A stretch of DNA of 64,000 nucleotides from Bacillus sp. ISL-45. GTDB lineage: Bacteria > Bacillota > Bacilli > Bacillales > Cytobacillaceae. How positions within the stretch are numbered: position 1 is the first letter of the stretch; each line of letters begins with the position of its first letter. The notes beneath the pieces are model-generated. The model made no database searches. It had not been told where the DNA came from and saw only the letters and a program-made list of their open reading frames with translations. Below, one piece after another: positions 31,779 to 47,282 of this stretch. Made by a program: the position numbers and the translations under genes. Location of the stretch: the NCBI RefSeq assembly GCF_018613195.1, contig NZ_JAGGQQ010000004.1:211375-275374 (forward strand), read 5' to 3'.

Positions 31779-33086
31779 TTACAAATTTTTCACAAATTTC
31801 TGAATTGTTTCCAATGCTCTGGAAGCATGCTTCTCATTGCGTTCCTGCTTAGCCTTGATTCTTTCGGGAAGATCAGGGAAAAGCCCGAAGTTTGCATTCA
31901 TAGGCTGGAAGTTTTTCGCGTTAGTCGTTGTTATATACCTGGCCATGCTGCCCATTGCTGTTTCATGAGGGAATTCCACTGGCTCATCACCATTTACAAG
32001 ACGGGCAGCATTAATTCCAGCAATCAGTCCGCTTGCCGCTGATTCAACATAACCTTCAACACCTGTCATTTGTCCCGCAAAGAATAAGTCTTCTCTATTC
32101 CTGAATTGATATGTTGCTTTTAATACCTTAGGTGAGTTGATAAAGGTATTACGATGCATGACACCATAACGGACGATTTCAGCGTTTTCCAGTCCTGGAA
32201 TCAGTTGAATTACTTCCTTTTGTGGTCCCCATTTCAAATGAGTCTGGAAGCCCACAATATTATAAAGTGTTCCAGCTGCATCATCCTGGCGGAGCTGTAC
32301 GACTGCATAAGGGCGTTTTCCAGTTCTAGGGTCCTCGAGCCCAACCGGCTTCATCGGTCCGAAAAGCATTGTCTTTCTTCCTCTTTGACCCATGACCTCT
32401 ATTGGCATACAACCCTCAAAAAAGATCTCTTTTTCAAATTCCTTAAGAGGAACTGTTTCAGCAGAAATCAACGCTTCATAAAAACGGTCAAATTCCTCCT
32501 CTGTCATCGGACAATTTAGATAAGCTGCTTCGCCTTTGTCATATCGGGATTTAAGATAGACCTTGTCCATGTCGATGCTGTCTTTCTCGATAATTGGGGC
32601 TGCCGCGTCATAAAAATATAGATATTCTTCCCCTGTCAACTCCTTAAGCTGCTGGGAAAGCGCCTGGCTTGTCAGTGGCCCCGTCGCAATAATGGTTGGA
32701 CCTTGGGGAATTTCAGTGATTTCTTCATTAAATACTGTAACATTGGGATGTTCCTTCACGCGGCTGGTTACATGCGCAGCGAACTCGTGCCGGTCTACTG
32801 CCAAAGCTCCCCCTGCCGGAACAGCACATGCGTCCGCTGCTGAGATGATGACAGAATTCATGTTCCTCATTTCTTCCTTTAGAACACCAACAGCGTTAGT
32901 TAAAGTATTAGCTCTCAAAGAGTTGCTGCAAACCAGCTCAGCGAATTTATCAGTATGGTGTGCCGGGGTCTGTTTAACCGGTCTCATCTCGTATAAGTTC
33001 ACCTTGATGCCTCTTTCAGCAAGCTGCCATGCAGCTTCACTTCCGGCCAAACCGGCACCAACGACATTTACAGTAGCTTCAGTCAT
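31779..33086 (-). CDS. trmFO: Folate/FAD-dependent tRNA uridine-54 methyltransferase TrmFO
   Basis: TrmFO makes ribothymidine at position 54 of tRNA using methylene-tetrahydrofolate and FADH2. The FAD dinucleotide-binding motif [21 protein letters not shown] is near residues 6-26, and [13 protein letters not shown] and [20 protein letters not shown] are family hallmarks. It has 435 aa (B. subtilis 435). The gene is preceded by about 900 bases containing its promoter and a large repeat array. Confidence 0.97.
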
Positions 33087-33197
33087 TTCAATTTCCTCCA
33101 GTAGCTATTAGAAATATTGTTTGTTGAAAATCCAATTGCCTTGTCTGATCCATATCTAAACAGGCAAAGTAAAAGCATCAGCCTTTTCAAAATAATT

Positions 33198-33206
33198 ATT
33201 ATAACA
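33198..33206 (-). promoter_or_regulatory. Candidate extended -10 promoter of trmFO
   Basis: On the minus strand TGT-TATAAT occurs about 110 bases before the trmFO ATG. The extended TGn and perfect TATAAT compensate for a poor -35 at the expected distance. It lies about 110 bases left of the repeat array, so the array would not be in the trmFO transcript. Confidence 0.5.
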
Positions 33207-33318
33207 CTTGCCTTGACATAAAGCTTCTATTATATACTCAACCTTACTTACTTTACCCTGATACTTGTATCATTTTGCACTTACATTTACGAAAAGAAAA
33301 GAAAAAAGTTTCAAAAAA

Positions 33319-33945
33319 GAAAAGCGGAAGCGCCTTGGTCAGCCCCGACAAGCGCTGGAGGGCCGACCGGCGAAGTCGTTCTTTGACTTCATCGGGCGGA
33401 CCGAAGCGACTCGAGGGGCTAGGCGCTGGAGCTGGACAAAGAAAAGCGGAAGCGCCTTGGTCAGCCCCGACAAGCGCTGGAGGGCCGACCGGTGAAGTCG
33501 TTCTTTGACTTCATCGGGCGGACCGAAGCGACTCGAGGGGCTAGGCGCTGGAGCTGGACAAAGAAAAGCGGAAGCGCCTTGGTCAGCCCCGACAAGCGCT
33601 GCCCGCCTAAAACGCCACTTCGTGTGGCTGGCGGGTCTAGCACCTCGTGTGCCTCAGAGGGCCGACCGGTGAAGTCGTTCTTTGACTTCATCGGGCGGAC
33701 CGAAGCGACTCGAGGGGCTAGGCGCTGGAGCTGGACAAAGAAAAGCGGAAGCGCCTTGGCCAGCCCCGACAAGCGCTGCCCGCCTAAAACGCCACTTCGT
33801 GTGGCTGGCGGGGCTAGCACCTCGTGTGCCTCAGAGGACCGACCGGTGAAGTCGTTCTTTGACTTCATTGGGCGGACCGAAGCGACTCGAGCTGCTAGGC
33901 GCTGGAGCTGGACAAAGAAAAGCGGAAGCGCCTTGGTCAGCCCCG
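33319..33945. repeat. GC-rich tandem array of structured repeat units (four full plus one partial)
   Basis: Units begin GAAAAGCGGAAGCGCC and end GGAGCTGGACAAA. Unit 1 is 33319-33440 and unit 2 is 33441-33562 (both 122 bp, differing by a single base). Units 3 (33563-33739) and 4 (33740-33916) are 177 bp because of a 55-bp internal module. A 29-bp partial unit 5 spans 33917-33945. Each unit folds back on itself: GCGCCT and AGCCCC near the start are complementary to GGGGCT and AGGCGC near the end, and TGAAGTC/GACTTCA forms an inner hairpin. The array is much richer in GC than its surroundings. Open frames across it are by-products of repetition. I recall similar elements scattered between genes in Bacillaceae genomes but cannot verify a family name. 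Confidence 0.97.
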
Positions 33946-33966
33946 GTAACACCTTTACAAAGATAA

Positions 33967-33990
33967 AGAGTGAGCCATTGGCTCACTCTA
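33967..33990 (-). terminator. Terminator overlapping the topA stop codon
   Basis: A perfect 10-bp stem (AGAGTGAGCC / GGCTCACTCT, 33967-33989) with a three-base loop includes two bases of the topA TAG stop. On the minus strand it is followed by a T-rich run (TTTATCTTT). It should end topA transcription before the repeat array. Confidence 0.8.
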
Positions 33991-36063
33991 GCTTTGTGGT
34001 TCCTCTTTATAGTCGCATTCCGTACACTGAACCTGAACACCCTTTTTGAGCTTCTTTTCAACTAGCATATTTTCGCATTTAGGGCATTTCCTTGCAAGTG
34101 GTTTATCCCATGATAGGAAATCGCACTCCGGGAAACGGTCGCAGCCGTAAAAAATCCGGCGTTTTTTGCTCTTGCGCTCAATGATATTGCCTTCTTCACA
34201 TTTGGGGCATTTAACCCCGATTTCCTTAACGATCGCCTTCGTATTCCTGCATTCCGGGAAATTACTGCAGGCCATGAACTTGCCGTACCGGCCCATTTTA
34301 AATACCATAGCGGAACCGCATTGATCACAATCTTCTCCAGCGGGTTCATCTTTAATTTCGATTTCCTGCATTTCCTTTTCTGCTACTTGGAGATGCTTTT
34401 CAAAATCACGGTAAAATTCGTCAATGACGTTGACCCAATGGATTTTTCCATCTTCAATATTATCGAGGTTCTGCTCCATTTTGGCGGTGAACTCGAGATC
34501 TAGGATTTCCGGGAAGAATTCCAGCATCAGCTCATGGATTACTTCACCAAGCTCAGTCGGCACGAACCGTTTATTATCAAGTGATACATAGCCTCTCTTC
34601 TGGATTGTATCCAATGTTGGCGCATATGTTGATGGCCGGCCAATCCCCATTTCCTCAAGCGTCCTGACAAGCCTTGCTTCTGTATATCTTGGAGGAGGCT
34701 GTGTAAAGTGCTGTTTCGGTTCGATCTCTTTCTTCGTGACCTCGTCACCTTCCCTCAGGTCAGGAAGGAACTTATCCTTTTCTTCCACCTGGTCATCCGA
34801 ACCTTCTACATAAACCTTCATGAACCCCGGGAATTTGACCTTTGAGCCTGTCGCGCGGAAAGTAACCTCTCCATTCTTCAAATCAACGCTCATCGTATCC
34901 ATGATCGCAGGAGCCATCTGGCTTGCGACGAACCGTTCCCAAATAAGTTTATAAAGCCTGTACTGATCCCTTGAGAGGAATTCCTTTATCTTCTCAGGAA
35001 CCTTCATTGTGCTGGTTGGCCGGATTGCTTCGTGAGCATCTTGAGCATTGGATTGCTTCTTCTCTTTCCTGGCCTCTGTCTGTATGAAATTTTCTCCATA
35101 CTCACTTGTGATATATTCCCTTGCTTCTCCTTGTGCAACTTCAGAAATTCGCGTGGAGTCCGTTCTCATATACGTAATCAAACCGACTGTTCCTTCTTTT
35201 CCGAGATCGATTCCTTCATAAAGCTGCTGGGCAAGCATCATTGTCTTTTTGGCTCTGAAGTTGAGCTTTCGGGCTGCCTCCTGCTGCAATGAAGAAGTGA
35301 TGAAAGGCGGTGCAGGATTACGCTTTCGTTCTTTCTTCGTCACCGACTCAACAGTGAATTTATTCCCCTTCACTTGCTTAAGGATATTTTTGACATCTTC
35401 TTCAGATTTCAACTCAGCTTTTACTTTGCCAATTCCATAAAAAGAAGCTTCAAATGAATTTTTGCCTTTCAGGAATTCAGCACCGATTGTCCAATATTCT
35501 TCTGGAACAAACGCAGCGATTTCCTTCTCACGGTCAATGATCATCCTTAAAGCAACTGATTGCACTCGCCCTGCACTCAGTCCCTTCTTGACCTTCTTCC
35601 AAAGCAGCGGGCTGATATTATATCCTACTAGTCTGTCCAGAGCTCGGCGTGCCTGCTGGGCATCTACGAGGTCCATATTGATTGCCCGTGGATGTTTAAA
35701 AGATTCCTTGATGGCATCCTTTGTAATTTCATTGAATACAACCCTGCAGTCCGAATGGACATCCACGTCGAGACTGTTGGCCAAATGCCAGGCAATCGCT
35801 TCCCCTTCTCTGTCGGGGTCAGCCGCGAGGTAGACTTTCTTTGCCTTTTTAGCGGCAGTTTTCAATTCCTTCAGTACGGGCCCCTTGCCTCTGATCGTAA
35901 TGTACTTAGGATTATAATTATTTTCTGTATCGATTCCCATCTGGCTCTTAGGCAAATCTATCAAATGCCCCATAGAGGCTTTCACTTTATATTTTTTTCC
36001 CAGGTAACGCTCAATCGTCTTTGCCTTTGCAGGCGATTCAACGATGACTAAAAAATCCGACAT
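33988..36063 (-). CDS. topA: DNA topoisomerase I TopA
   Basis: TopA is a type IA enzyme that relaxes negative supercoils. The Toprim domain starts at residue 3 ([19 protein letters not shown]) and has the acidic cluster [14 protein letters not shown]. The catalytic tyrosine is in [14 protein letters not shown] near residue 300. The C-terminus has three zinc-ribbon modules ([68 protein letters not shown]...CTEC). It has 691 aa. The coding sequence ends inside its own terminator. Confidence 0.98.
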
Positions 36064-46691: not shown

Positions 46692-46877
46692 AGCATTTCC
46701 TCCTTAAAGCAAAGCTGGCAAAACATTCTTTATGGCTGCACCAATGCTTTTATACTTATGACTTGTTCCGGACACTCTGTTTATTAAGAAACATGAAATT
46801 ATTGGGGCACCATTTTTCCAACCAGTCATTTCGTTCTTCTTAGAACGGTTATTTTGGTTTCGTGTTCATACAGGCTT

Positions 46878-47150
46878 TATTGAGACACTTTTTTCGACCA
46901 GCCATTTGGTTTCGTGTTCTAATAACCCGTATTAAGACACTTTTTTCAAACGGACATCTAGTTTCGTGTTCCAATTACCTGTATTGAGACACTTTTTTCG
47001 ACCAGCCATTTGATTTTGTGTTCTAATAACCCGTATTGAGACACTTTTTTCAAACGGTCATCTAGTTTCGTGTTCCAATTACCTGTATTAAGGACACTTT
47101 TTTCGACCAGCCATTTGATTTTGTGTTCCAATAACCCGTATTGAGACACA
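46878..47150. repeat. 52-bp AT-rich minisatellite with two alternating unit types
   Basis: Units start TATTGAGACAC or TATTAAGACAC at 46878, 46930, 46982, 47034, 47086 and 47139, giving spacings of 52, 52, 52, 52 and 53. Units of type A (46878, 46982, 47086) contain CGACCAGCCATTTG; those of type B (46930, 47034) contain CAAACGGACATCTAG or its variant. The higher-order period is thus about 104 bp. The last unit at 47139 is partial, and a degraded copy precedes 46878. The flanks of each unit (GACACTTTTTTC and GTGTTC) are invariant. Confidence 0.95.
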
Positions 47151-47282
47151 TTTTCTATCCTAGTATTCTCTTTCATTGAATCACTCACTCTAATGAATAA
47201 GTCGTTAACTAAAACTGCCAGAACACCAATATAACTCTGTGCTCTACGGTAATTCATTATACCTTAATTCTCTGGAAATAGA

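Follow-up and report, generated by a model that had tools for sequence, protein, structure and literature searches.

Group IIC introns target terminators, and the Bacillaceae-1 RNA is known for its RUCCU loops and its rRNA-operon setting. As far as the accessible parts of the published descriptions go, the BOX repeats of Streptococcus pneumoniae are small, modular, hairpin-folding and intergenic, occur in high copy and vary in the number of the inner module (PMC3049150). Target duplications are reported for BOX, and its orientation mirrors the coding bias, with 60.8% leading (PMC3049150). In P. fluorescens SBW25, the REP arrays on one side of the genome are oriented oppositely to those on the other (PMC3116915). 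IS200/IS605 elements have hairpin ends and insert into the lagging-strand template (PMC6006769), and group IIC introns insert beside a DNA stem-loop, with lagging strands being used (PMC10190682). The bcr repeats of the Bacillus cereus group are interspersed and intergenic, some being MITE-like and some structured (PMC3446304). The Bhal-1 repeat is described for B. halodurans (PMC2267715), and Bacillaceae-1 appears in Table 1 of PMC2864571. The Rfam families were compared with the present locus by sequence, while BOX, REP, bcr and Bhal-1 were compared by description. A search of titles and abstracts, with subscription papers and supplements outside its range, found no paper describing the family reported here.

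The window, i.e., the whole 64,000-nucleotide stretch of Bacillus sp. ISL-45 DNA analysed, has a tandem array between trmFO and topA. The features of the locus are as follows; the gene calls are mechanical open frames.

31779..33086, minus strand: trmFO, 435 aa (open reading frame; NCBIfam TIGR00137, 799.1 bits, cut-off 428.65)
33316..33437, plus strand: array unit 1, 122 bp, a core without tail (covariance-model match, G000:C23:244693-244810)
33321..33336, minus strand: terminator-like head of unit 1, a short stem with a T-run (consensus match only)
33438..33559, plus strand: array unit 2, 122 bp (fold z -5.7; covariance-model match)
33443..33458, 33565..33580, 33742..33757 and 33919..33934, minus strand: the same terminator-like head in the later units and the partial copy (consensus match only)
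33560..33736, plus strand: array unit 3, 177 bp, a 122-bp unit with a 55-bp insert
33602..33656, plus strand: 55-bp insert of unit 3 (33591-33653 resembles Bacillaceae-1, scoring 30.4 bits against a cut-off of 35)
33737..33913, plus strand: array unit 4, 177 bp
33779..33833, plus strand: 55-bp insert of unit 4 (33768-33830 resembles Bacillaceae-1, scoring 28 bits against a cut-off of 35)
33914..33945, plus strand: partial copy closing the array, 32 bp, element head only
33967..33989, minus strand: predicted intrinsic terminator of topA, T-run toward the array
33988..36063, minus strand: topA, type I DNA topoisomerase, 691 aa (open reading frame; NCBIfam TIGR01051, 882.9 bits, cut-off 456.4)

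Tandem Repeats Finder delimits the array as 33316-33945: the unit occurs twice at a length of 122 bp and twice at 177 bp, followed by a 32-bp partial copy. A sequence-only reading of this DNA had described the same four unit lengths; its array starts slightly too late, and its final partial copy of 29 bp is corrected to 32 bp. It had also pointed out that the unit ends are complementary and that each unit has an inner hairpin (TGAAGTC/GACTTCA), and both features are present. Units 1 and 2 are 99% identical and units 3 and 4 are 97% identical, the longer units differing from the shorter ones by the 55-bp insert. Unit 2 folds at -64 kcal/mol, and none of 200 shuffles was as low. The topA terminator has the array on its T-run side, and six terminator-like sites were found in 33080-34060, compared with a mean of 1.9 (sd 1.5) in shuffles. 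Nothing matching the array turned up in collections of plasmid and phage records searched at the default limit. A second tandem array at 46853-47154 has a sequence unlike the first and can be read as 5.8 copies of a 52-bp unit (78% matches) or 2.7 copies of a 104-bp unit (95%).

The Rfam search over the window found only the ribosomal protein L19 leader (RF00556; 44921-44959, minus strand, 40.8 bits) at gathering score, with no group II intron family and no ribozyme match. The alignment of the 55-bp insert with Bacillaceae-1 (RF01690) spans the entire model, both in the window and in another locus, L033 (30.0 bits). All three scores are below the cut-off of 35, and, unlike RF01690, the insert is an optional module of a larger element. 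Thus, on the point of a catalogued family raised earlier, the insert resembles RF01690 below its cut-off, while the rest of the unit has no Rfam match at gathering score.

The unit is dispersed in the genome. With one unit as the query, blastn gave at least 61 matches in the own genome (G000), several of which are pieces of one copy and seven of which are from the array. The covariance model gave at least 128 matches there, with 150 of 1296 candidates scored. Each of the 20 congeners searched gave 21 or more matches. Across the order, the model matched at least 121 of 159 sampled genomes and at least 65 of 87 sampled genera, with up to 23 candidates scored per genome. These counts, and those of the two closed genomes (G018 and G015) below, are lower bounds, a part of the candidates having been scored. 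The element is roughly 160-180 bp in size, and relatives have around a hundred copies per chromosome. A 20-base pattern was found in at least 117 stretches of named genomes. The 80 stretches listed are from Mesobacillus, Neobacillus, Metabacillus, Cytobacillus, Planococcus, Planomicrobium, Lysinibacillus and Bacillus sp., and also include a record labelled Chryseobacterium. The sequence-only reading had spoken of single copies of similar elements in Bacillaceae; copies elsewhere do exist, and the spread goes well beyond that. One copy (L022, 1501-1621) is located between tRNA-Glu (1416-1491) and tRNA-Met (1623-1697), both on the minus strand.

A full element consists of a head (AAGAAAAGCG...), a GC-rich hairpin core and an AT-rich tail. 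The core is about 118 bp and folds as one long hairpin; in the aligned copies, the head reads GAAAAGCG, the outer arms are CAGCCCC and GGGGCTAGGCGC, and there is a central hairpin. The tail of the dispersed copies is 38-57 nt in length and is missing from the array units. At least two kinds of tails exist, ACACTAATCTAAGTGTAAAAGTTTATACTTTC and TTAAGA..TTATCCACA..TTTATAATTTCCTA. One tail class (for example, L010, about 1462-1500, and L340) carries a AGTTATCCACAACT-like sequence, which is close to the DnaA-box consensus TTATCCACA. Possible terminal inverted repeats, of the sort that a DDE-transposon MITE would have, are seen as TAAGAAAAG and CTTTCTTA at some copies (A171, L023) and are not evident in the class ending with TTTCCTA. 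A CsrC match at 1384-1573 of L023 (30.6 bits, cut-off 61) spans an element end and the adjoining terminator and was taken as chance.

The element is a mosaic. Many copies have extra pieces at fixed points, either the Bacillaceae-1-like insert or nested elements of sister subfamilies after CCGAA. The nested copies have no tail and sit where there is no T-run. One composite is common to several loci, and composites seem to spread as units. The core shows covariation: 18 of its 25 pairs change on both sides, and none of 500 shuffles (mean 6.2) reached 18. With the partners slid, 7-10 pairs did so. In the alignment, 95.9% of cells pair over 63 sequences, which are those left of 69 candidate cores after four duplicates, and two cores lacking a recognised end, had been dropped; one alignment end (L019) was moved 6 bases by hand. 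The wobble counts (30 G-T versus 17 A-C cells, P 0.08) favour neither strand.

How does the topA locus look in relatives? In 20 genomes (the own one and 19 congeners), the topA-trmFO gap has the element or a piece of it in 15 and none in five (G002, G004, G005, G007 and G011). The number of full cores per gap ranges from none to four, which supports the recent amplification suggested from the near-identity of the units. G018 has a head piece alone, while G019, G012 and G003 have one full core and a head piece each. The own genome has two plain units, two insert-bearing units and a head piece, and G015 has four full cores and one interrupted core. A head piece of similar length ends the array in eight of the 19 congeners. 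In the topA array, a dispersed, hairpin-forming mobile element seems to have expanded locally in tandem, without its tail. Recombination between the 32-bp heads is the probable cause of this growth; since the heads are shared by the units, unequal recombination is the simplest route. It is highly improbable that the array is a simple tandem duplication beside topA with no mobility involved. The copy-number differences would fit recombination between heads in that case too, but the dispersed copies and the filled and empty sites described below would be left unexplained. The proposed link to topoisomerase I and supercoiling was dropped, as the element is found at about 120 places, topA being one of these, and the feature common to them is a nearby terminator hairpin.

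For the statistics of insertion sites, 161 of 167 full cores were used, those with short or repeated flanks being left out. Of these 161 copies, 77 have a terminator-like hairpin on the tail side and 11 on the head side, no more than 90 nt from the core; for random intergenic points, the number is 159 of 1000. At an offset of 30-65, the numbers are 57 of 161 on the tail side, 5 of 161 on the head side and 59 of 1000 at random. Among the 77 tail-side hairpins, 64 have an A-run before and 46 have a T-run after the stem. Under the definition used, 84 of the 161 copies have no terminator-like hairpin. The preference of the element for a hairpin on its tail side is a statistical one.

Nine pairs of filled and empty sites were obtained by comparing G000 and G019 over 400 kb each, where the syntenic blocks are mostly 88-96% identical. 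Five of the nine empty sites (B257, B105, B214, A183 and A363) have a strong hairpin at the junction, from -16 to -22 kcal/mol, and two have a weaker one (A171, -10.7; A76, -9.9 kcal/mol). No clear hairpin was found in the other two (A311 and B135). For random stretches, the 5% and 25% quantiles of the fold are -12 and -8 kcal/mol. In the older pairs, small differences in the flanks blur the junction.

The sites turn over. Nine of the 15 sites that can be paired between G000 and G019 differ, and two more sites are unpaired. At the B257 place, only G019 has a copy among the 21 genomes, judged from about 1.5 kb on each side (less for G009), with the junction itself diverged in several distant congeners. 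Compared with G017, whose left flank is 97.8% identical, the inserted segment measures 179 bp and is flanked by CCAATGAA and TAAAAAAATGGCACCC. AA at most is shared at the junction, and there is no target duplication beyond 2 nt. This is a precise and recent insertion. At the A363 place, 15 of 20 genomes are empty, while G000 and G018 have the same kind of copy and G012 has another kind with a different tail; a deleted form is present in G015, and G003 has a short one located at a contig edge. To my reading, at least two insertions took place here, both in the gap that separates a stop codon from its terminator. In the G012 copy, compared with G004, 1 nt is shared by my reading. The fixed-length target-site duplication expected of a DDE-transposon MITE was thus found neither at B257 (2 nt at most) nor at A363 (1 nt); the other pairs are too diverged to judge duplication.

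Is the orientation of the element linked to replication? In the two closed genomes, 107 of at least 121 loci in G018 and 105 of at least 117 in G015 agree with the direction of replication (88-90%), 0.75 being assumed as the null for agreement. The prevailing sign is minus on the arm replicated rightward and plus on the other arm, and it switches at dnaA (4462555 in G018 and 4410800 in G015). The origins had been placed from mnmG-like matches and were then confirmed by dnaA, with no locus changing arm. Because genes too are mostly leading (304 leading to 87 lagging in the sampled G018 regions; 668 to 93 in the two stretches of 400 kb), the case has to be made from the types of gaps. In G018, consistent and reversed elements number 47 and 8 between two leading genes, 18 and 3 between convergent genes, 8 and 1 between divergent genes, and 4 and 1 between two lagging genes, the last type having just five loci. 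This test covered 90 G018 loci (77 consistent and 13 reversed), including all 14 exceptions and a part of the consistent loci; with the terminus at 2.2 Mb instead of origin plus half, one exception becomes consistent. Since 30 elements are consistent and 5 reversed outside the both-leading gaps (P 2e-5), the orientation tracks replication independently of the genes, at least in part. The excess of consistent elements over the gene bias is modest (P 0.009), gene direction and replication direction being partly confounded. In the two genomes, 17 of the 26 reversed loci lie between two genes pointing the element's way.

An enzyme was searched for in the genus. A Y1 domain was found in 18 of 21 genomes, with no match in G005, G014 and G015, all of which carry the element. 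The Y1 (RAYT-like) genes of the genus are of two or more kinds (L139-L158), that of G000, in L141, being a fragment. The flanks of 20 of the 47 listed Y1 matches, with IS200-sized copies left out of the check, contained no credible copy, giving only three nhmmer matches at E 4.1-6.4. A Y1 fragment of G013 (G013:C6) lies about 2.2 kb from an element copy. For reverse transcriptases (RVT_1), six genomes were searched: G019 has six matches, G000 and G014 have one each, a single weak or partial match was obtained for each of G005 and G015, and G018 has none. The six matches of G019 are all on contig C1, compared with none or one in the five other genomes. Thus, no candidate enzyme present wherever the element is was found. 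The RAYT partner suggested from the sequence is plausible in kind, but it is not supported, Y1 being missing in three of the 21 genomes and no credible copy lying beside the 20 Y1 loci. A reverse transcriptase partner is not supported either, as G018 has no RVT_1 match.

Like BOX, going by the accessible description of the latter, the element is a modular, hairpin-folding intergenic repeat; unlike BOX, its cleanest site shares no more than 2 nt, and 88-90% of its loci agree with replication. It resembles the REP/REPIN repeats and their RAYT (TnpA-REP) partners in being a dispersed palindromic repeat that forms tandem arrays. In contrast, it is longer (a core of about 118 bp plus a tail), is associated with terminators, and does not lie beside the Y1 genes examined. 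Its orientation fits insertion into the lagging-strand template as in IS200/IS605, a bias that is seen here in the orientation only, while no transposase is present inside the element. Unlike the situation for group IIC introns, no intron or ribozyme match was found in the window. It can also be likened to bcr1-bcr18 as an interspersed intergenic repeat, within what the accessible description of these offers.

The reading I favour, with a probability of roughly 0.6, is that of a non-autonomous hairpin element that inserts next to hairpins where the lagging-strand template is single-stranded, in the manner of IS200/IS605, REP or group IIC elements. The element would tend to insert at the foot of an intrinsic-terminator hairpin with its tail toward the hairpin, on the lagging-strand template just 3′ of the DNA hairpin. 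One prevailing orientation relative to replication is what would be expected of such an insertion. An enzyme would be supplied in trans, and the core could take up extra hairpin modules or whole nested elements. The head, when read on the lagging-strand template, resembles a terminator (a stem and a T-run), and hence it could be a target for further copies. A broader form of this reading is possible but tentative: that the family is an order-wide, terminator-mimicking mobile DNA that folds on the lagging-strand template with a T-run, inserts behind such hairpins including its own, and multiplies, nests and tandems terminators via a not-yet-described enzyme or replication process. As to the agent, a Y1 (HUH) transposase of the IS200/RAYT kind moving a long REP-like element is rather doubtful. 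The lagging-strand orientation, the hairpin structure and the absent target duplication fit its chemistry as given in the accessible part of PMC6006769, and the domain is present in most genomes of the genus, but the three element-carrying genomes that have no Y1 match and the Y1 flanks devoid of credible copies speak against it. A group IIC-like retromobility, in which a reverse transcriptase would insert an RNA copy 3′ of a stem-loop, is quite unlikely, weaker still than the Y1 case. The geometry is the same, with a 5′ stem-loop beside the insertion site and lagging strands used (PMC10190682, in its accessible part), and the genome with the fresh B257 insertion is the one with six RVT_1 matches. 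However, G018 has no RVT_1, the matches of G005 and G015 are weak or partial, and no group II intron family reaches gathering score in the window.

Could the copies instead be a conserved functional RNA? They might be hairpins of 3′ untranslated or inter-operon regions, serving as an mRNA stabiliser or a second terminator, with position and orientation under selection at the RNA level. The strong covariation would be explained, as would the terminator-like head on the minus strand. The head lies within 10 nt of the end of the upstream gene in 29 of the 56 copies with a co-directional upstream gene (148 of the 161 copies were kept for this count). According to the accessible text on the bcr repeats of B. 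cereus, 84 of 165 and 62 of 155 are within mRNA, and bcr3 goes with a longer half-life (PMC3446304). On the other hand, a functional RNA accounts poorly for the turnover of sites, with B257 filled in one of 21 genomes and nine of the 15 paired sites differing. The replication-linked orientation holds even between convergent genes (18 to 3), and the wobble counts single out neither strand as the one selected. I therefore regard the functional RNA as unlikely.

Should a hairpin element indeed insert into the lagging-strand template, each chromosome would have about a hundred elements, related to those of at least 65 of the 87 genera sampled in the order, that use intrinsic terminators as landing pads and keep a record of the direction of replication. 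Bacillaceae-1-like hairpins would then be placed inside a mobile element. The family would provide a testable case of hairpin-directed single-strand insertion, and it would become possible to ask how the extra terminators affect the neighbouring genes.
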